Assembly: GCF_037113415.1 (NCBI RefSeq)
Contig: NZ_CP146608.1
Coordinates: 1,260,501 to 1,324,500, forward strand
Direction of reading: 5' to 3'
Source of the DNA: Devosia sp. XK-2
Lineage (GTDB): Bacteria > Pseudomonadota > Alphaproteobacteria > Rhizobiales > Devosiaceae
Length of the DNA: 64,000 bases
Part shown: positions 726 through 40,252 of the stretch, piece after piece
How the letters are laid out: every line of letters starts with the position of its first letter
Position numbering within the stretch: the stretch's first letter is position 1
Program-made: the position numbers and the translations under genes
Notes under the pieces: model-generated
What the model was told of the DNA's origin: nothing
The model's database searches: none
The model's input: the letters and a program-made list of their open reading frames with translations, nothing else

Positions 726-1994
726 ATGGAATTGCGCCGAGTCGTCGTCACCGGACTGGGTCTTGTCACGCCGCTTGGCTGCGGCGTGGAAGCAACCTGG
801 TCCAATATTCTTGCCGGCAAGAGTGGCGCCAAGCGTATCGACGATTTTGAAATCGACGATATTGCCTGCCAGATCGCCCACCGCATTCCGCTTGGGGACT
901 ATGCCGACGGCAAGTACAACCCCGACGAATGGATGGAGGTCAAGGAACAGCGCAAGGTTGATCCTTTCATCGTCTATGCCATGGCTGCGGCCACTCAGGC
1001 CATCCAGGACGCGGGTGTCGAGCCCAAGACCCAGGAAGAGCAGGAGCGCACCGGCGTTCTGATCGGCTCGGGTATTGGCGGCGTTGGCGGCATCTATGAT
1101 GCGTCCGTGACCCTGCATGAAAAGGGGCCGCGCCGCATCAGCCCCTTCTTCATTCCGGGCCGGCTCATCAACCTGGCCTCCGGCCAGGTCTCGATCCGCT
1201 TTGGTCTCAAGGGTCCGAACCACTCGGTGGTCACAGCCTGTTCGACCGGCGCGCACGCCATTGGCGACGCTGCCCGTCTCATCGCCTTGGGCGATGCCGA
1301 CGTGATGGTGGCCGGTGGCACGGAAAGCTGCGTCAATCGCCTGTCGCTGGCCGGTTTCTCGGCCGCGCGTGCGCTCTCGACCGGCTTTAATGACAATCCC
1401 ACCGCCGCGTCGCGTCCCTATGACAAGGACCGCGATGGCTTCGTCATGGGCGAAGGCGCGGGCATTGTCGTGCTCGAGGATTACGAGCGGGCCAAGGCCC
1501 GTGGCGCCAAGATTTATGGCGAGGTGATCGGCTATGGCCTTTCGGGCGATGCCTATCACATCACTGCGCCTTCGCCCGATGGCGATGGTGGCTTCCGCGC
1601 CATGAGCGCAGCAGTCAAGCGCGCCGGCATTTCACCCGCCGAGATCGACTATATCAACGCCCATGGCACCTCGACGCCGCTTGGTGACGAGATCGAACTG
1701 GGCGCAGTGACCCGCGTGCTGGGTGATGCGGCCAAGGGCGCAGTGATGAGCTCGACCAAGTCGGCCGTTGGCCACCTGCTAGGCGCTGCCGGCTCGGTGG
1801 AGGCGATCTTCTGCCTGCTCGCCATGCGCGACAGCATCGTGCCGCCGACGCTGAACCTGGACAATCCTTCGGTTGAGACCGAGATGAATCTCGTGCCGCA
1901 CAAGGCGCTCAAGAAGAACGTCAATGTGGCGCTGTCCAACAGCTTCGGCTTTGGCGGTACCAATGCCACACTGGTGATGCGCAAGGTCAGCTAA
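726..1994 (+). CDS. fabF: 3-oxoacyl-ACP synthase II (KAS II)
   Basis: A 422-residue beta-ketoacyl-ACP synthase. The condensing-enzyme triad is visible: Cys172 in VVTACSTGAH, His313 in NAHGTSTPLGD, and His350 in KSAVGHLLGAAG. The C-terminal GFGGTNATLV segment is also conserved. It condenses malonyl-ACP with acyl-ACP to lengthen fatty acids. The length matches FabF (about 410-420) rather than FabH. It follows acpP by 22 bases and ends before a strong hairpin, so acpP-fabF looks like one transcription unit. Confidence 0.96.
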   Translation: MELRRVVVTGLGLVTPLGCGVEATWSNILAGKSGAKRIDDFEIDDIACQIAHRIPLGDYADGKYNPDEWMEVKEQRKVDPFIVYAMAAATQAIQDAGVEPKTQEEQERTGVLIGSGIGGVGGIYDASVTLHEKGPRRISPFFIPGRLINLASGQVSIRFGLKGPNHSVVTACSTGAHAIGDAARLIALGDADVMVAGGTESCVNRLSLAGFSAARALSTGFNDNPTAASRPYDKDRDGFVMGEGAGIVVLEDYERAKARGAKIYGEVIGYGLSGDAYHITAPSPDGDGGFRAMSAAVKRAGISPAEIDYINAHGTSTPLGDEIELGAVTRVLGDAAKGAVMSSTKSAVGHLLGAAGSVEAIFCLLAMRDSIVPPTLNLDNPSVETEMNLVPHKALKKNVNVALSNSFGFGGTNATLVMRKVS

Positions 1995-2011
1995 ACTTTT
2001 CCACCAATTGT

Positions 2012-2050
2012 AAGGGGCACATCGCATTCACCTGCGGTGTGCCCCTTGTC
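2012..2050 (+). terminator. hairpin after fabF
   Basis: A 10-bp perfect inverted repeat (AAGGGGCACA at 2012-2021, TGTGCCCCTT at 2038-2047) with a further GC pairing in the loop, followed by GTCTTTG. It begins 18 bases after the fabF stop and fits a Rho-independent terminator, although the T run is short. Confidence 0.7.
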
Positions 2051-2142
2051 TTTGAGCGCGGGCATGCGAACAATGCCGGCGCCCCGCCACAATCTGGCGC
2101 AAAAACAATGACAACCAGGCCGTACAAGGCTGCTATTCGCGA

Positions 2143-3276
2143 GTGACAGGGAAGATGAACGACCGCAGGAACCGGCGCCGCCGCCGCTCGGGCAATGGCA
2201 TGATCGACGTTCTCAACGGTCTGCTGACCCTGCTGGTCATCGGCCTGGTCGTCGTGGGTGGTGGCCTGTTCTTCGTGGCCTCGCAATATTATGGCGATGG
2301 GCCGACGCGCGGGGACCGCGTCTTCCGCGTGGAGTCGGGCAATACGCTCTCGACCACTGCGAACCGGCTTGAGGAGCAGGGTTTCATCACCAATTCGGTG
2401 ATCTTCAGCCAGTTCGGCAGCCGGGTGGAGGAAAGCGCCGTCGTCAAGGCCGGCGATTTCAACATCCCCGCCGGCGCCTCCATGTCCGAAATCCTCAAGG
2501 AACTGACCCAGGGCAATCCACTGCGCTATGCGGTGACCATTCCCGAAGGCTGGACCGTGTGGCAGGCCATTCAGCGCATCAATGCCGATGACAGGCTGAC
2601 CGGCTCGATCGACCAGCTTCCGTCCGAAGGCTCGATCCTGCCCGGCAGCTATGACTACACCCCTGGCGACACCCGCCAATCGGTGCTGGACGACATGCAA
2701 TTGGCCATGACCCAGGCGCTGGCCGAGGTCTGGGAGGGACGGCAGGCCGACCTGCCGCTCGAATCCCCCGCCGAAATGCTGATCCTGGCGTCAATTGTCG
2801 AGAAGGAAACGGGCATCGCCACCGAGCGCCCGCAGATCGCCGCGGTTTTCGTCAATCGCATCCGTGAGGGCATGCGCCTGCAATCGGATCCGACCATCAT
2901 CTATGGCATCACCCTTGGCCAATCGACGCTGGACCGGGGCATTCGCCGCTCGGAAATCGAGGAGAAGACGCCCTATAACACCTATCAGATTGACGGCCTT
3001 CCCCCCACGCCCATTGCCAATCCGGGCATCGAGGCCTTGCGAGCGGTCGCACATCCCGATGGTCACGATTACCTCTATTTCGTCGCCAAGGGCGCCACGC
3101 CGCGCGAGGGTCACGTCTTTGCCGAGACCTATGCCGAACACCAGCAGAATGTGGCGCGCTATCGCGAAATAGCAGCCGAGGCCGCCGCTCAGGCGGAGGC
3201 CGAAGCGGAGGCCGCGCGTCAGGCGCTGGAGGCCGAAGAGGCCGGTGCGGCCACACAAGGCGAAACCGCGCAGTGA
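2143..3276 (+). CDS. mltG: endolytic transglycosylase MltG
   Basis: A 377-residue protein with an arginine-rich cytoplasmic N terminus, one transmembrane helix at about residues 24-46, a LysM-like region, and the YceG/MltG domain. The catalytic glutamate is likely Glu220 in ASIVEKETG, and the conserved YNTYQIDGLPPTPIANPG segment is present. MltG cleaves nascent glycan strands at the inner membrane and is thought to end peptidoglycan polymerisation. Residues after about 345 form an Ala/Glu-rich tail. The GTG at 2143 gives the listed start; ATG at 2155 is a possible alternative. The gene overlaps yicC by 4 bases (GTGA), indicating translational coupling. Confidence 0.93.
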   Translation: MTGKMNDRRNRRRRRSGNGMIDVLNGLLTLLVIGLVVVGGGLFFVASQYYGDGPTRGDRVFRVESGNTLSTTANRLEEQGFITNSVIFSQFGSRVEESAVVKAGDFNIPAGASMSEILKELTQGNPLRYAVTIPEGWTVWQAIQRINADDRLTGSIDQLPSEGSILPGSYDYTPGDTRQSVLDDMQLAMTQALAEVWEGRQADLPLESPAEMLILASIVEKETGIATERPQIAAVFVNRIREGMRLQSDPTIIYGITLGQSTLDRGIRRSEIEEKTPYNTYQIDGLPPTPIANPGIEALRAVAHPDGHDYLYFVAKGATPREGHVFAETYAEHQQNVARYREIAAEAAAQAEAEAEAARQALEAEEAGAATQGETAQ

Positions 3277-34165: not shown

Positions 34166-35476
34166 ATGAAACTCAAGAGCCTTATCCTCGGTTCTGTTGC
34201 TGCCGCTGGTCTCTCGACCGCTGGCTTCGCTGCCGATCTGGGTGTTCTCACCTCGCTCGACGTCTGTGACTCGCTCGGCATCTCCGGCCTGACCATCTCG
34301 TCGGCTGACAATTGCCTGCAGATCACTGGCGGCGTGAAGTACGAATTCAACTGGGGCGACTACCGCGGCGCTTATGTCTATGCCGGTATCCTCGGCGGCG
34401 CCAGCAACCGCGACACCATGGACAACGATGGCGTTTCGCCGTCGGAGCTCGATTGGGAATCGCAGATGGAAGCTTGGCTGAAGTTTGTCGGCACTGCTTC
34501 GTCCGACTTCGGTCCGGCCTCGGTGACCCTGAAGCTTAAGGAAATTCAGGAAACCCGCGTCCAGAACGAAACCCTGATGGCAACTGACGATGCCAAGGCC
34601 CTGACCTTCGACGAAGCCTATGTCTCGGTCGGCGACACCACCACTCTGATGGCTGGTAAGAAGGGCTCGATTGCCAACTTTGGCGACGACGAGCCGTTCA
34701 ACTGGCTCGGTCTTGCCGGTTCCGATTGGGCCGACAAGGGCGTGAAGTGGGATATCCTCAACGGCAACCTCGACACCGGTGGTCACGTGATCCAGGTCGT
34801 CTCGGCTGTTGCTGATGGCGTCACCATCAAGGCCGGTCTCGAAAACCTCGACGACACCCTGCCCGCTTGGGCCGGCACCGCCGTCGGTGTTCTCGAATAC
34901 GCTGGTGAAGGCATCACTGCCCACATCACCGGTCTTGCCGGTGGTATCCTCGACGGTAACGTTGAAGCCTGGTCGGTTCATGCTGGCATGACCGGCACCT
35001 TCGATGCCTTCAAGATCCGCGGCGCCTTTGCTGCGCAGACCGTTGGTGCGACCACTGCCTGGCACGCTCTGCTGTCCGGTCAGGGCACCTTCGACATGTT
35101 CACCATCGCTCTGTCGGGTGAAGCTCTGGGTCAGACCGGCCTGAACACCGACTGGGGCTTCGGCGGCTCCATCGGCGCCACCGTGACCGAAGGCGTGTCG
35201 ATCAACCTCGGCGCCAAGTACTTCGACTCGAACAACGCTGGCGGCCGTGACGGCTACCAGGTCGCTGCTCAGCTCGTTGCTGCTGTCTCCGAGTCGATCA
35301 AGCTGACCGGCGAAGTCGGCGTCTATGGTGATATCACCAACTCGACCTCGGACTTCTACGGCGCTGCCGAACTCGCTTGGGCTCCGGGTGGTGGTTTCAC
35401 CTCCTCGATCAAGGGCGAAGCTCACCAGAACGGTGCCTACAAGGTCACCTTCAAGGCTGCCAAGGAATTCAAGTAA
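34166..35476 (+). CDS. major outer-membrane porin (alphaproteobacterial porin family)
   Basis: A 436-residue protein with a signal peptide at residues 1-22 (GFAAD). The mature protein is a run of alternating amphipathic strands ending in a lysine and phenylalanine (TFKAAKEFK), typical of rhizobial porins of the Porin_2/Omp2 group. It would form a trimeric channel for small solutes. The gene has a strong GGAGG site 8 bases before the ATG, a long leader, and a strong terminator, and its codons look highly optimised (CTG, GGC, GAC, AAG), all pointing to high expression. Upstream in-frame starts fall inside the leader and are not used. Confidence 0.88.
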   Translation: MKLKSLILGSVAAAGLSTAGFAADLGVLTSLDVCDSLGISGLTISSADNCLQITGGVKYEFNWGDYRGAYVYAGILGGASNRDTMDNDGVSPSELDWESQMEAWLKFVGTASSDFGPASVTLKLKEIQETRVQNETLMATDDAKALTFDEAYVSVGDTTTLMAGKKGSIANFGDDEPFNWLGLAGSDWADKGVKWDILNGNLDTGGHVIQVVSAVADGVTIKAGLENLDDTLPAWAGTAVGVLEYAGEGITAHITGLAGGILDGNVEAWSVHAGMTGTFDAFKIRGAFAAQTVGATTAWHALLSGQGTFDMFTIALSGEALGQTGLNTDWGFGGSIGATVTEGVSINLGAKYFDSNNAGGRDGYQVAAQLVAAVSESIKLTGEVGVYGDITNSTSDFYGAAELAWAPGGGFTSSIKGEAHQNGAYKVTFKAAKEFK

Positions 35477-35500
35477 TCCTTGGATTACGTCTGAATTCGG

Positions 35501-35532
35501 AAAGGCCCGGCTCTGCCGGGCCTTTCTTTTTT
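35501..35532 (+). terminator. porin terminator
   Basis: AAAGGCCCGG (35501-35510) and CCGGGCCTTT (35516-35525) with a 5-base loop and then CTTTTTT. It begins 25 bases after the porin stop and is the strongest terminator in the window. Confidence 0.95.
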
Positions 35533-35650: not shown

Positions 35651-35778
35651 ATCCCGCATCCGAGAGAATGCTATTCGCCAGTCCGCCCCCTTGCCTCGCT
35701 TCGGGCCTCATTTTCTCTTTGTCCCCGCCTGCAAATCATCTAACCTCTTAAAAATTGTGGTTTTCCAATGGATTCGGG

Positions 35779-38655
35779 ATGATCAGGGACCTCCTCAAGT
35801 GGGTGGCGCCGGGTGTTGTGACAGTCTTGGGCGGCACATTTGCAGCCCTGGCACTCACCACGCCGGGCATGGTGGATAGTCTGGCATCCGAGGGCAGGGC
35901 CGCGCTTCACGCCGCAGGGGTCGATTGGGCACATCTGTCCGTTTCCGGCCGTCAGCTTGCCGTGACCGGCACCACATCCTCCGATAGCGAGCGTGATTTC
36001 GTCCTCGCGCGTCTCGCCGCTCTGCCCGGCATAGCCGCGATCGATCAAACTGTAACCATCGCGCCCTTGGCCGCACCATATAGAGTTAATGTGGCGGTTG
36101 AGAATGGACAGGTAAGTCTTTTTGGAAGCGTTCCAAATGAGGAATTGCGGCAGGTCTTGATGGCGGCGCCCGGCTTGGCTGCCGTGGACCTGCAGATACG
36201 GTCCGGCCAGCCCGATGAGGGCCAATGGCGCGAGGGTGTCGAATTCGCCCTGTCTCAAGCCCGTTTCATCGAATCCGGCGTCTTTGAACTGTCCGGACTG
36301 ACGCTCAGTGCTGTCGGCCGCGCCAATTCCGAACGGGCTTTGGGCCATTTGCGCATGGCGCTGGCCACGCTTCCTCCCGCCATCAATAGCGGAGACATTG
36401 ATCTCGCGCCGGTGCGGGTCCAACCCTACACTTGGCGCGCCGAATATGACGGCGAGCGGATTGCCATTTCCGGCTATGTGCCGGAGGAGCGGGTTGTCGA
36501 ACGGCTGCGGCTTGCCGATGTGGCCGGCGTGCCGATTGCCACGGGCGTCTCGCTGGCCTCGGGTGCGCCGGCCGGCTTCGCCGAGCAGGCCAAGCTCTTG
36601 GTTGAGCAATTGGCGCTGCTTGAGCGAGGCGAAGCGAGCATTGTCGATGGCGTGAGCCACATTTCCGGCGTGCCGGCCAGCATCGAAATTGCCCAAGCCG
36701 TGACCGAGGCCCTGTCCGGCCCCAATTCGATTGTCGACCTGCAGCCGCCGCGCATTTCGGATTATTGGGTCAGCATCAATCGCCAGCCGGGCGATGTGCT
36801 GGTCTTTGATGGCTATGTTCCGGACGAGAAGACCCGGGCCGCTTTCGCGCAATTGGATGGCGCCGATGTCTCCTTTCTGAAATTCGGTGCCGGAGCGCCG
36901 GAGCAATATCATCGCGCCGTCGATTTCGGGCTCGAACTGCTCTCCCATTTGTCCGAAGGTCGCTTCGCATTGGCTGGCAATGCCGTGTCCCTGTCCGGCT
37001 TTGCGCAGTCGCCGACCCATTATCGCGCGATCCAGACGCTGCTCAATAGCGGACTGCCGCAGGGATTGGTGCTGGGCGAGCTGGCCTTCCAGGCACCCCC
37101 GGCGGCCAATTATACCTTCACCGCCCAGCGGGACGCCAATGGCGCTATAACGCTTGGCGGCATGCTGCCAGGCCCGGACGTTGAAACGCGATTGCTGGCT
37201 TTGGCCGGCGCATCGGCGCGCTCGAAGGTCAGCTATGCCTCCGGTGCGGCGCCCGATTTTGTCGCTGCCGCGGAGCAGGCATTGCGTTTCCTGCCGTGGC
37301 TGCGTCAGGGCGCGGTGCATTTCGACGGCGCAGGCTGGACGGTTGAAGGCGAGCCGGCATCGGCAATCGATCAGGGCTCGATCGAGGCCGAATTCGCCGT
37401 GCGCGGCCTGGCGCGGTCAGGCTGGACACTGGCTCTGGCGGCATTGCCACCGCAACCCGTCCTTGCCGATCCCTTCACCTGGTCCGCCGAGCGCCTGCCC
37501 GACCGCAGTTTTCTATTCGCCGGCAACGTTCCGGCTGCGTCGCTACAGCACTATTTTAAGGTCCATGTTGGCGCGCGCAGCACCGATACCAGCCAGCTTG
37601 CCCTTGGCGCGCCGGACAATTTCGCGGTTGAAGCGCGCGCCGCTGTCGACGCCTTGTTGATCCTTGAACAGGGCAGGGTGGCCTTCGATGGTCGCCAATG
37701 GACGCTGACCGGAACCGCCGAAACGGCGGAGGCCCGCGATAACAGCCTGGCCATTGCCAGCATATTGGCGCTCGATGACGTCGCCGGCGTGACCGCGCCC
37801 GCCTCGACCGATAGCGAACCCTATACCTGGTCGGCGACCAAGTCGGCTGAGGGAGCTGTCGTGTTCGCCGGGGCGGTGCCTGCCGAATCGCTGCAGCGCT
37901 TTCTTGCCGTGCGCGGCGGCGGCGCGGTGACCGACAATACCCTCATTCGCCCGAACGCGCCCGACACTTTCGCGCAGGATGTCCTGCAGGCGCTCGATGT
38001 CCTGGCCCTGATTTCCGAGGGCGAGGTGACGTTCGACGGGACGTCCTGGATGGCCAGGGGCAGGGGCGTTAATGTTGCCTCGCAGGCTGAGGCCGAGACG
38101 GTCCTCGGCACGGCCCTGCCGCGCTGGTCGCTGGCCTTGTCCTCATCGACGGCATCGGAACAGGTCGCCCCTGAACCAGAGGCGCGACAGGCCGATATGG
38201 CCTTGTCCGGCAGCGAGGCGCCTGCCGAAGAAGCCCAGCCGGCGGACGCATCCCCGGTTTCCGCTGCGTCGAATTCGGGTTTGTGCGAAGCCAGTCTCGC
38301 CGAGCTCTCGGCCCATAATGCCATTCTGTTCCAGTCGGGCGCGGCGATTATCTCGGCCGGCGCCTCCAGCGAGCTCGACGCCTTTGCCGAGGCGCTCGCG
38401 CTTTGCCCAGGTGTGCCGATCAATGTTGAGGGACATACCGATAGCGACGGCGATGACCAGCGCAACCTGGCCCTGTCTGTGGCGCGGGCCGAAGCCGTGG
38501 TCAATGCGCTGATCGAGCGCGGAATCGCCCCGGAACGGCTCTACGCCATTGGTTATGGGGAGACCCGGCCGGTGGCCGATAATGCCACGACCGACGGCAA
38601 GCGGCAGAACCGGCGCATTGTCGTATCGATACGGAATGCACAAGGGGCGGTTTAG
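35779..38655 (+). CDS. OmpA-family protein with six repeated BON-like modules
   Basis: A 958-residue envelope protein. One membrane helix lies at about residues 10-28. Six modules of about 110-120 residues follow, starting near residues 101, 219, 329, 445, 567 and 683; each opens with an aromatic residue and a V/I-rich strand, then G-x-VP/LP, then a GAP or SGAP turn, and closes with a strand like FDGxxWTxxG. A short acidic linker leads to an OmpA-like domain (about 845-958; NVEGHTDSDGD, then GYGETRP). The OmpA domain should bind peptidoglycan. The repeat function is unknown; the strand pattern recalls BON domains. ATG at 35779 is used. Confidence 0.8.
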   Translation: MIRDLLKWVAPGVVTVLGGTFAALALTTPGMVDSLASEGRAALHAAGVDWAHLSVSGRQLAVTGTTSSDSERDFVLARLAALPGIAAIDQTVTIAPLAAPYRVNVAVENGQVSLFGSVPNEELRQVLMAAPGLAAVDLQIRSGQPDEGQWREGVEFALSQARFIESGVFELSGLTLSAVGRANSERALGHLRMALATLPPAINSGDIDLAPVRVQPYTWRAEYDGERIAISGYVPEERVVERLRLADVAGVPIATGVSLASGAPAGFAEQAKLLVEQLALLERGEASIVDGVSHISGVPASIEIAQAVTEALSGPNSIVDLQPPRISDYWVSINRQPGDVLVFDGYVPDEKTRAAFAQLDGADVSFLKFGAGAPEQYHRAVDFGLELLSHLSEGRFALAGNAVSLSGFAQSPTHYRAIQTLLNSGLPQGLVLGELAFQAPPAANYTFTAQRDANGAITLGGMLPGPDVETRLLALAGASARSKVSYASGAAPDFVAAAEQALRFLPWLRQGAVHFDGAGWTVEGEPASAIDQGSIEAEFAVRGLARSGWTLALAALPPQPVLADPFTWSAERLPDRSFLFAGNVPAASLQHYFKVHVGARSTDTSQLALGAPDNFAVEARAAVDALLILEQGRVAFDGRQWTLTGTAETAEARDNSLAIASILALDDVAGVTAPASTDSEPYTWSATKSAEGAVVFAGAVPAESLQRFLAVRGGGAVTDNTLIRPNAPDTFAQDVLQALDVLALISEGEVTFDGTSWMARGRGVNVASQAEAETVLGTALPRWSLALSSSTASEQVAPEPEARQADMALSGSEAPAEEAQPADASPVSAASNSGLCEASLAELSAHNAILFQSGAAIISAGASSELDAFAEALALCPGVPINVEGHTDSDGDDQRNLALSVARAEAVVNALIERGIAPERLYAIGYGETRPVADNATTDGKRQNRRIVVSIRNAQGAV

Positions 38656-38665
38656 GCCGGCAGCC

Positions 38666-38788
38666 ATGACGTCATTTTGGCCGACATTGCTGTTTCTGGT
38701 CAGCTATTACTGGCCCTTCATGGCCGTCGCGGCGACCATCGGGCTGGTCACGGGTTGGCTGAGCCTGAGCAGTGAGGATCGGCAATGA
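38666..38788 (+). CDS. small single-pass membrane protein
   Basis: A 40-residue open frame (MTSFWPTLLFLVSYYWPFM..., ending SSEDRQ) with one or two hydrophobic stretches over residues 3-33. It begins 10 bases after the OmpA-type gene stop and overlaps the next gene as ATGA. The size and the tight packing support a real gene; I do not recognise the family. Confidence 0.6.
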   Translation: MTSFWPTLLFLVSYYWPFMAVAATIGLVTGWLSLSSEDRQ

Positions 38789-39294
38789 TCCCGGTCCAGC
38801 ATGCTATCGAAATCGCGCTTCTGGTCTTGGTGGCCTATCTTGGTGGCTGCATGCTGGGCTATGCCGCCCATGGCGCCGTTCGGCGCTACGCGGCCCGTCC
38901 GCGCCTGGCTATTGTGCCGGCGCCCGCGGCTCCGCAGGCCACGGAAGCGCCACTGCAGCGGCCACCCGCAAATCGATCGGCCGCGCGCCGTTTGGCCAGC
39001 GCCGTCGAGCGAGCACAGGCCGAGCTCACGCCTGCCGCTGCCCCCGCGCAGATTCGCCCGCCCGACCTGCCGGCGCCGCGTCGCGGCCGGGCCGATAATC
39101 TGCGTGCCATCAAAGGGATAGGGCAAAAAACTGAATCGGCGCTGCATGATCTGGGCATCTATCACTATGACCAGATCGCTGCCTGGACGCCGGCCCATAT
39201 CGATTGGCTCGAAGGCCGCATTGCCCTCAAGGGCCGGATTCGGCGAGAGCAATGGGTCGAGCAGGCCGTGCTCCTGGCGACGGCGATAGCCTAA
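38785..39294 (+). CDS. membrane-anchored helix-hairpin-helix protein
   Basis: A 169-residue protein with an N-terminal membrane helix (residues 7-28), a low-complexity Ala/Pro-rich linker (about 40-95), and a C-terminal domain with an HhH motif (NLRAIKGIGQKTESALHDLGI) like those seen in COG3743 and in some NADH dehydrogenase chain E extensions. HhH domains usually contact nucleic acid, but in such membrane-tethered forms the role is unknown. It is the third gene of the operon with the OmpA-type protein and a 40-residue peptide. Confidence 0.75.
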   Translation: MIPVQHAIEIALLVLVAYLGGCMLGYAAHGAVRRYAARPRLAIVPAPAAPQATEAPLQRPPANRSAARRLASAVERAQAELTPAAAPAQIRPPDLPAPRRGRADNLRAIKGIGQKTESALHDLGIYHYDQIAAWTPAHIDWLEGRIALKGRIRREQWVEQAVLLATAIA

Positions 39295-39301
39295 AGCCGG
39301 G

Positions 39302-40252
39302 TCAGGCTGCGTGGCGGCCGACCTGGCCGGTCTCGAAGACGAACGCGGCAACCGCCTCGATTTCGGCCTGCTGGTCGAACAGCGCCGGCGAGCCTTGGCC
39401 CGCTATGGTCAGCGTAGTGGCATCGGGGCGGCGGCGCACCATTTCATCGAAGGTTTCGCGTCGCAATTGGTCGGTCAATTGCGTCCGCAGCAGCATTAGC
39501 GGTGCGCAGCCGAGCGCCTCGTAAAGTGGCCATTGCGCCACCAGAATGTCGTCAAAACTGATATCCTTGATCTGCTCGATCAAGCGTGGATCGAACAGGG
39601 GCCGGGCCCGCCCGCGCTTGTCGAACCAATGGCTATGCAGCGCCAATGCGTCCAGCTCGACATCGGAATGGCCGGGATAGTCGCCACTCATCATGCGCCG
39701 GAACCCATTGGTTACGGTCCTGGCGCCGCGCAGGGCCTCGACATGCGCTAGATTATTGCGCAGCCGCACAATACCGCGCGAATCCGTAACCGGGCCGGAA
39801 TCGAGCAATATCGTGCCGCCCACCACGAGCGGATGGCGCGTCGCCAGCGCCATGATCACCTGTCCGCCATGGCCCTGGCCGAGCAGAATGGCCCGACCAA
39901 TGCCAAGCGCCATAAGAATGTCCGCGACGTCATCCGCATCGGTCAGTGTGCTATAGGGCGATTTGCGCGGACGGTCGTCGGCGCGGCCGCGCCCGGGCAG
40001 GTCGAGCAAAACAAGGGGCCAGTCACCTGAACCAAGCCGTTGAAAATGGGCAGCAAAAGCCGCGAAATCACTCATGTTGCGGTGATAACCGGCCAGGCAG
40101 ACCAGCGGCAGGCGACCTGCCCTGAAGTCCCCGCGCAGATGCACGGCCGCTCGCGTTCGCGCATCGCTGAGGCAAATACGGGTCACCGGCAGCCCGGCAA
40201 AGGCGGGGTGCGCATCCGGGATCGTGCGTTGGCGGCTGAAAAGCGGCGTCAT
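39302..40252 (-). CDS. alpha/beta-hydrolase-fold protein, probably non-catalytic
   Basis: A 316-residue protein with the fold's sequence landmarks: LPLVCLAGYHRN (oxyanion region), LVLLDLPGRGRAD, and a nucleophile elbow. That elbow reads LLGQGHGG, so the place of the nucleophile (normally Ser in G-x-S-x-G) is Gly. The usual C-terminal GH is also replaced (IAGQGSPALF). It therefore lacks both nucleophile and catalytic His, though the Asp region may remain. It may be a pseudoenzyme. It diverges from dapA and converges on the HhH gene. Confidence 0.75.
   Translation of the reverse strand: MTPLFSRQRTIPDAHPAFAGLPVTRICLSDARTRAAVHLRGDFRAGRLPLVCLAGYHRNMSDFAAFAAHFQRLGSGDWPLVLLDLPGRGRADDRPRKSPYSTLTDADDVADILMALGIGRAILLGQGHGGQVIMALATRHPLVVGGTILLDSGPVTDSRGIVRLRNNLAHVEALRGARTVTNGFRRMMSGDYPGHSDVELDALALHSHWFDKRGRARPLFDPRLIEQIKDISFDDILVAQWPLYEALGCAPLMLLRTQLTDQLRRETFDEMVRRRPDATTLTIAGQGSPALFDQQAEIEAVAAFVFETGQVGRHAA

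Follow-up and report, generated by a model that had tools for sequence, protein, structure and literature searches.

This analysis concerns a three-gene operon of Devosia sp. XK-2. It lies in a stretch of 64,000 nucleotides (contig NZ_CP146608.1, positions 1,260,501 to 1,324,500 of the forward strand), which is called the window; positions are counted from its first letter. Three open reading frames (ORFs) of the + strand form the operon: 35779-38655 (958 amino acids, aa), 38666-38788 (40 aa) and 38785-39294 (169 aa). On profile comparisons and a modelled fold, the first gene is firmly placed in the ArfABC family. An earlier note on this DNA knew of no described system with this composition; that statement does not stand, as mycobacterial arfABC (Rv0899-Rv0901) has the same one: a BON/OmpA protein, a tiny membrane protein, and a third protein made up of a single helix, an arm and a small domain at the C-terminus. 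Module family and fold, gene order, co-occurrence, gene fusions and predicted topology were computed here. Handles beginning with L refer to loci, those beginning with G to genomes.

The operon and its first protein

The features of the operon are as follows (coordinates; strand; description; basis).

35779..38655; +; arfA-like gene, 958 aa: anchor, partial BON-like unit, six ArfA-type modules, linker, OmpA domain.
35806..35862; +; N-terminal membrane anchor, about residues 10-28; sequence and hydropathy, limits by eye.
35851..36066; +; partial N-terminal module copy, about residues 25-96; profile, domain E 8e-5.
36079..36426; +; module 1, residues 101-216; module comparison and profile.
36427..36762; +; module 2, residues 217-328; comparison and profile, part of the modelled pair.
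36763..37110; +; module 3, residues 329-444; comparison and profile, modelled pair, weak NF051434 match (0.019).
37111..37473; +; module 4, residues 445-565; module comparison and profile.
37474..37821; +; module 5, residues 566-681; module comparison and profile.
37822..38166; +; module 6, residues 682-796; comparison and profile, weak NF051434 match (0.021).
38284..38406; +; codon of C836 to codon of C876, the family cysteine pair in the OmpA domain region; sequence and scoring of the pair.
38326..38613; +; OmpA domain of the peptidoglycan-binding type, residues 850-945; Pfam 1.8e-21.
38666..38788; +; arfB-like gene, 40-aa one-helix protein; position and pattern of relatives.
38785..39294; +; arfC-like gene: one helix, Ala/Pro arm, HhH tail predicted to be cytoplasmic; position and layout.
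39085..39285; +; HhH tail domain of the third protein; profile comparisons.

Ten bases separate the first two genes, and the second and third overlap by 4 bases (ATGA); the tight spacing given by the earlier note is thus confirmed at 38655-38785. The 958-aa ORF could also start at an in-frame TTG at 35755. The other components named by that note are also present: a six-module OmpA protein with a membrane anchor, whose modules stand out in pairwise shuffles and whose OmpA end is assigned by Pfam to the peptidoglycan-binding kind, a 40-residue membrane protein, and an HhH protein with one helix and an Ala/Pro linker.

The modules start at residues 101, 217, 329, 445, 566 and 682 (spacings 116, 112, 116, 121, 116 and 115). 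Thirteen of the 15 module pairs score above all 200 shuffles; the shuffles reach pair 1-2 in 1/200 and pair 1-5 in 13/200. The six-module profile also finds the partial N-terminal copy listed above. A wider profile built from 54 modules (6 of the window, 48 of relatives) was run against all PDB sequences. Its best matches all correspond to the central domain of Rv0899 (OmpATb, ArfA): 2kgs (5.4e-12), 2ksm (5.4e-12) and 2l26 (2.6e-11); OsmY follows at 0.0079, and three more rows lie between 0.24 and 0.67.

Structure prediction of the modules, proposed by the earlier note as a check, leads to the same fold. The AlphaFold2 model of window modules 2-3, made with a 70-row alignment, has a predicted local distance difference test score (pLDDT) of 96.7; a full-length AlphaFold2 model made without alignment (pLDDT 39) was discarded. 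Foldseek comparison of the modelled pair with 350,542 chains returns solely 2l26 and 2kgs at E<=0.001, with 2ksm next (0.0025). A second structural aligner, run on the top chains of Foldseek, gives the three Rv0899 entries Z 10.8 (114 residues, 4.5 A), 9.7 (107 residues, 2.6 A) and 8.8 (110 residues, 3.6 A); the best row beyond them is Z 4.9. One window module aligns with ArfA residues 80-202 and spans the BON pair as in ArfA; the unit therefore occurs once in ArfA and six times in the window protein.

The NCBIfam model NF051434 (ArfA_OmpATb_N) matches 45/54 modules at E<=0.01 and an 830-residue stretch of the window protein at 2.5e-7. The six window modules compared by hhalign with four mycobacterial ArfA domains score 40.2 (maximum of 40 column shuffles: 17.1). 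Pfam matches to NfeD, DUF748, Cdd1 and mitoregulin lie below the cut-offs of these families and were rejected.

The OmpA domain carries a second family character. In mycobacterial loci L127-L130, ArfA has one Cys before the OmpA domain and another in a 'CP' turn that precedes the motif G-x-(S/A/T)-D; the window protein has the same pair (C836, C876). The cysteine pair of ArfA is a disulphide. The pair was first scored in 30 proteins, and the motif was then widened. Among the 50 module-bearing proteins fetched (window included), both Cys are scored by script in 41 of the 43 scorable ones and are visible by eye in the two misses and the seven unscorable proteins. The second Cys is found in none of the 58 other OmpA-motif frames of 76 non-mycobacterial loci; in OmpA frames without a detected module, the pair is found in 4/6. 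A 957-aa OmpA protein of the same genome (L107) has neither the modules nor the pair and was set aside.

At locus L104 a second OmpA protein (1420-3222, -) has the Cys pair, no detected module and a signal-like start; its gene directly precedes the tiny and HhH genes.

The second and third genes and their relatives

The tiny proteins share a helix pattern. The majority pattern of 31 aligned sequences is M-x-YL-x3-LWP-x4-A-x3-G-x3-GW, in which only the start Met and one Gly never vary. The NCBIfam ArfB model NF051435 matches 5/31 of them at E<=0.1 (best 2.8e-4). Compared with three mycobacterial ArfB proteins they score 25.7, above all 60 helix-column shuffles (mean 10.4, maximum 21.5). The best helix match is that between tiny and third proteins (score 39.4, probability 96.7%). 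Helix similarity as a class is therefore real. Matches of tiny proteins to LapA_dom (14/31), mitoregulin (8) and ATP-synthase j (3) were judged to reflect helix composition and were rejected.

In the third protein, a single helix at the N-terminus is followed by an Ala/Pro-rich arm and, at the C-terminus, by an HhH domain; in third proteins generally, Ala and Pro make up 36% of the arm on average and the HhH domains number one to five. Gene spacing is similar at two mycobacterial loci: the gaps in L127 and L129 are 12 and 11 bases, each followed by a 4-base overlap (window: 10, then 4). The three genes of L127 are recognised by NCBIfam, all above cut-offs, as ArfA, ArfB and ArfC with a sunset domain.

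Co-occurrence of the three genes across genomes, which the earlier note had put forward as a check, was found. The sample comprises 29 other genomes whose loci were found via the long protein alone, 25 of them read on longer regions around the same gene; for G049, the piece that was read came from the tiny-protein search. The OmpA end is readable in 27 relatives. The tiny gene, free or fused, is present in 26/27 and the HhH gene in 24/27; two of the three relatives without it were read on pieces that stop 606 and 660 bases after the OmpA gene, and the third is G154. In a sample of 61 loci, which is biased because it was partly chosen by tiny-protein matches, 56 OmpA frames were found. Fifty have modules: 38 with tiny and HhH genes, 4 with HhH only (including fusions L081 and L119), 2 with tiny only and 6 with neither (including the tailless fusions L106, L115 and L116).

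Fusions link the two small genes further. The tiny protein and the helix of the third protein form one chain in seven relatives of three families (L081, L238; L106, L115, L116; L119, L242). An added helix lies between the fused parts in 7/7, so that three helices precede the arm; L242 has one further weak stretch, inside its Ala-rich arm. Lys and Arg residues are found almost exclusively after the helix: 90 after and 3 before in 34 third proteins, 46 after and 0 before in 31 tiny proteins. The excess after the helix is seen in 32/34 third and 27/31 tiny proteins, the reverse in none. The odd extra helix fits this pattern, since joining two N-out/C-in proteins needs one. The helix count of the fusions and the Lys/Arg counts therefore indicate, as a predicted topology, that the HhH tail of the third protein is most likely cytoplasmic.

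The number of modules varies from 0 to 9 in relatives. Modules are found in 111/199 sampled genomes of the order (E<=1e-5) and in 42/299 genomes of the phylum (E<=1e-8); of these 42, 22 belong to the order, 17 to other parts of the class and 3 lie outside the class. The matches outside Alphaproteobacteria (G279, G351, G471) lie in frames of 279 and 261 aa and of 610 and 654 aa. ArfA-type modules also occur within long proteins that look kinase-like by eye (L112, L113; G070, G106). These two genomes are rich in modules but were rejected as operon relatives: the kinase-like proteins are followed by a 63-residue membrane protein, seen in L113, that has another pattern, and no HhH match was found in the two genomes. 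The module appears to have a different use there.

A candidate envelope tether and its alternatives

In layout, the resemblance to arfABC extends to each gene. ArfA (OmpATb, Rv0899) shares with the first protein an anchor, a central domain made of a BON pair, an OmpA domain with the same Cys pair, and the first place in the operon; it has one central domain and 326-332 aa, whereas the window protein has six and 958 aa. ArfB (Rv0900) is likewise a tiny one-helix protein in second position with a similar helix pattern, of about 50 aa in L127 and L129 and 40 aa in the window. ArfC (Rv0901; NF051433, NF051455) is likewise encoded by a third gene that overlaps the second, and has one helix, a low-complexity arm and a small C-terminal domain; its tail is a sunset domain, whereas that of the window protein is HhH. 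The window operon thus differs from mycobacterial ArfABC by its multi-domain chain (six ArfA domains versus one) and its HhH tail. Homology of the second gene to ArfB is suggested by the helix comparisons, the third gene is assigned to ArfC by position, and gene order together with layout are the grounds for one-to-one descent of B and C.

The operon is probably an alphaproteobacterial operon of the ArfABC type, and its products as a whole would form a trans-envelope tether that ties a cytoplasmic partner to the wall. The ArfA-like protein would be anchored in the inner membrane, extend a chain of BON-pair domains into the periplasm and grip peptidoglycan by its OmpA domain; its reach would be set by the number of modules, and a chain spanning much of the periplasm is plausible. 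The ArfB-like and ArfC-like proteins, both one-helix and N-out/C-in, would pack via their small-residue faces and probably also against the anchor of ArfA. The flexible Ala/Pro arm of the latter would present the cytoplasmic HhH domain as an adaptor for a lineage-specific partner. Assembly of A, B and C, binding of peptidoglycan by the window copy and the tether role are what we infer from these features. That the output of the operon resembles the acid and ammonia adaptation reported for mycobacteria is possible but doubtful.

Several results weigh against this assignment. The window protein scores 31 bits against NF051434, whose equivalog cut-off is 81; it is therefore a member of the wider family and no ArfA equivalog. 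The same model has no match at E<=1 to 4/6 single window modules (modules 3 and 6 match weakly). The tiny protein of the window matches no family model, NF051435 included. Among the 31 tiny proteins, Pfam LapA_dom (best 3.2e-4) matches more than the ArfB model does, and the judgement that such matches reflect helix composition applies equally to the 5 ArfB matches. The cross comparisons tiny-ArfC (21.6) and ArfB-third (21.2) come near the tiny-ArfB score, so that the helix evidence is not specific for a link to ArfB; the helix of the third proteins has no significant likeness to that of ArfC (NF051455), with a score of 12.2 that 4/60 controls reach. Among the four mycobacterial loci compared, L128 has a gap of 19 bases and an overlap of 1, and no second-gene ORF of at least 38 aa is listed in L130. 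The sunset domain of ArfC is absent from the third protein, which has HhH in its place; as NCBIfam names the sunset form of ArfC a variant, this domain may not be required. Genome G154, of the same genus, encodes at L069 (5479-6330) a 284-aa protein with anchor, one module and OmpA domain, and neither small gene was found there.

Three other explanations were considered. The first protein might be a generic BON/OmpA envelope protein, lipid-binding like OsmY or DolP, beside two small genes of unrelated function: 16/54 modules match Pfam BON, 16/54 match BON_like, and OsmY, DolP and BonA appear lower in the lists. As Rv0899 ranks above all other BON structures listed, the module covers the BON pair as in ArfA, and the small genes recur in the relatives and are fused in some, this is considered quite improbable. 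BON-like modules might instead be stacked into rings, as in the inner-membrane proteins YscD, CdsD and PrgH of type III secretion. There are weak matches to YscD/SctD models, CdsD, PrgH and YscD occur among the lower fold rows, and a heptameric-ring model of OmpATb has been proposed, which is contested according to the excerpts available of PMC3816664. These fold rows reach only Z 3.3-4.8, however, and no secretion family recurs in the 65 neighbour ORFs scanned, where FHIPEP and a flagellar hook-length protein each occur once. Anchoring at the wall and a module number of 0-9 would also suit a tether better, and ring formation is judged very improbable.

An ammonia or ion channel with a pore lined by B and C would agree with the NCBIfam name of ArfA ('channel-forming') and with the impaired acid growth and the role in fast ammonia secretion described for the mycobacterial gene (excerpts of PMC3816664). 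According to the same excerpts, later work saw no obvious porin activity, and the structure is globular and of the alpha/beta kind; B and C have one short helix each, and a polar face is not evident by eye. Little credence is given to a channel.

The tether reading remains preferred. As far as the excerpts of PMC3816664 go, Rv0899 forms no beta-barrel, takes part in the fast secretion of ammonia and in adaptation to acid, and by itself is not critical for mouse virulence; they also cite Marassi 2011 for Rv0899-like proteins occurring mainly in bacteria of nitrogen fixation and metabolism. The domain layout of ArfA is given in the available part of PMC6151718, and that of PMC4885829 describes ArfC as a protein of unknown function, together with acid tolerance. 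A Rhizobium paper naming OmpATb (PMC8909678) concerns, in the part available, a single-BON protein of another family and was rejected. Alphaproteobacterial arfB or arfC, or an HhH-tailed ArfC, was found in none of the papers among the matches listed in a literature search that left subscription journals mostly outside, and novelty is therefore not proved. A supposed orphan system is moved into a known, poorly understood one, and non-mycobacterial homologues are offered for study. For reach and assembly, the series of 0-9 modules and the B-C fusions serve as natural experiments.

HhH tails on other proteins and neighbouring genes

Apart from third proteins, the HhH tail is carried by respiratory and photosynthetic proteins and, according to models, by ribosomal ones. 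All 34 third proteins match, at E<=0.1, the C-terminal extensions in the NCBIfam models of NuoE, L21, S2 and phasin PhaH, and 33/34 match a second L21 model. The tail was confirmed in actual NuoE proteins (window genome, L228); those of L21, S2 and PhaH are known here from the models. Against PDB, the HhH profile matches a complex I subunit (1.7e-27) and protein-O of RC-LH1 (2.1e-26); matches to DNA polymerase IV, RadA and NusA are weaker (0.0027 or weaker). NuoE, protein-O and the modelled L21, S2 and PhaH share with the third protein the same C-terminal domain behind a low-complexity stretch; NuoE and protein-O differ from it as subunits of other complexes. As described in the available part of PMC12079452, protein-O has its membrane part at the N-terminus, this domain at the C-terminus and a loop that is long and flexible; what such domains do physiologically is called obscure there. 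HhH tails are found in 187/199 genomes (E<=1e-8); two were found in the window genome, on the third protein and on NuoE. Because the third protein would put the tail domain on a wall-linked membrane complex, the role of the tail becomes testable.

In actinobacteria, the sunset domain of ArfC is also modelled by NCBIfam on ribosomal proteins L17, L4, S2 and L20. Two unrelated tails (HhH, sunset) are thus each common to ArfC and to models of ribosomal proteins; this is the oddest fact of the analysis and weakly supports a docking role. ArfC might be a membrane dock for 'tailed' cytoplasmic machines, in which contact of like tails would tie ribosomes or energy complexes via ArfABC to peptidoglycan; this is considered unlikely. 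At the thresholds used, 79/199 genomes have HhH tails without modules and 3 have modules without HhH; strict dependence of the tails on ArfA was accordingly rejected, and these genomes weigh against the dock. So do the three tailless fused relatives and the fact that the sole other sunset protein in the two mycobacterial genomes searched is non-ribosomal.

In L209 and L210 the sunset domain ends a long, apparently secreted mycobacterial protein with repeats seen by eye, which we take to be LGFP-like.

Three features flank the operon.

39302..40252; -; alpha/beta-hydrolase gene, convergent with the operon; frequent neighbour in relatives, elbow GQGHGG.
35499..35527; +; 13-pair terminator-like hairpin, downstream of the porin-like gene and ahead of the operon; 2 such sites versus 3.7 expected in shuffles.
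34166-35476; +; porin-like gene upstream of the operon; a relative is present in 6/6 same-family loci fetched.

Neighbour ORFs were chosen by length, and 65/126 were scanned (35 upstream, 30 downstream); some are antisense, and the upstream porin was missed in this way. Abhydrolase_1 matches 19/65. A relative of the window hydrolase is found in 25/60 loci, many of which end too early to tell. Adjacency was found in 29/35 genomes, which were hand-picked among the matches listed and are no random sample; the HhH row of G110 lies outside the operon. The convergent alpha/beta-hydrolase gene is thus a frequent fourth neighbour, and the reduced locus of G154 keeps a relative of it.

The nucleophile elbow reads GQGHGG in the window hydrolase versus GTSRGG in 18/19 loci of other families (no motif was found in L110); the catalytic Ser of the window hydrolase therefore seems missing. 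The elbow Ser is also missing in 5/6 same-family loci, and L071 reads GQSHGG.

The genomes of loci L222, L223, L234 and L236 (family f40) have no module match, and these loci encode HhH proteins with one helix; at 3/4 of the loci a hydrolase relative lies 121-122 bases from the HhH protein.

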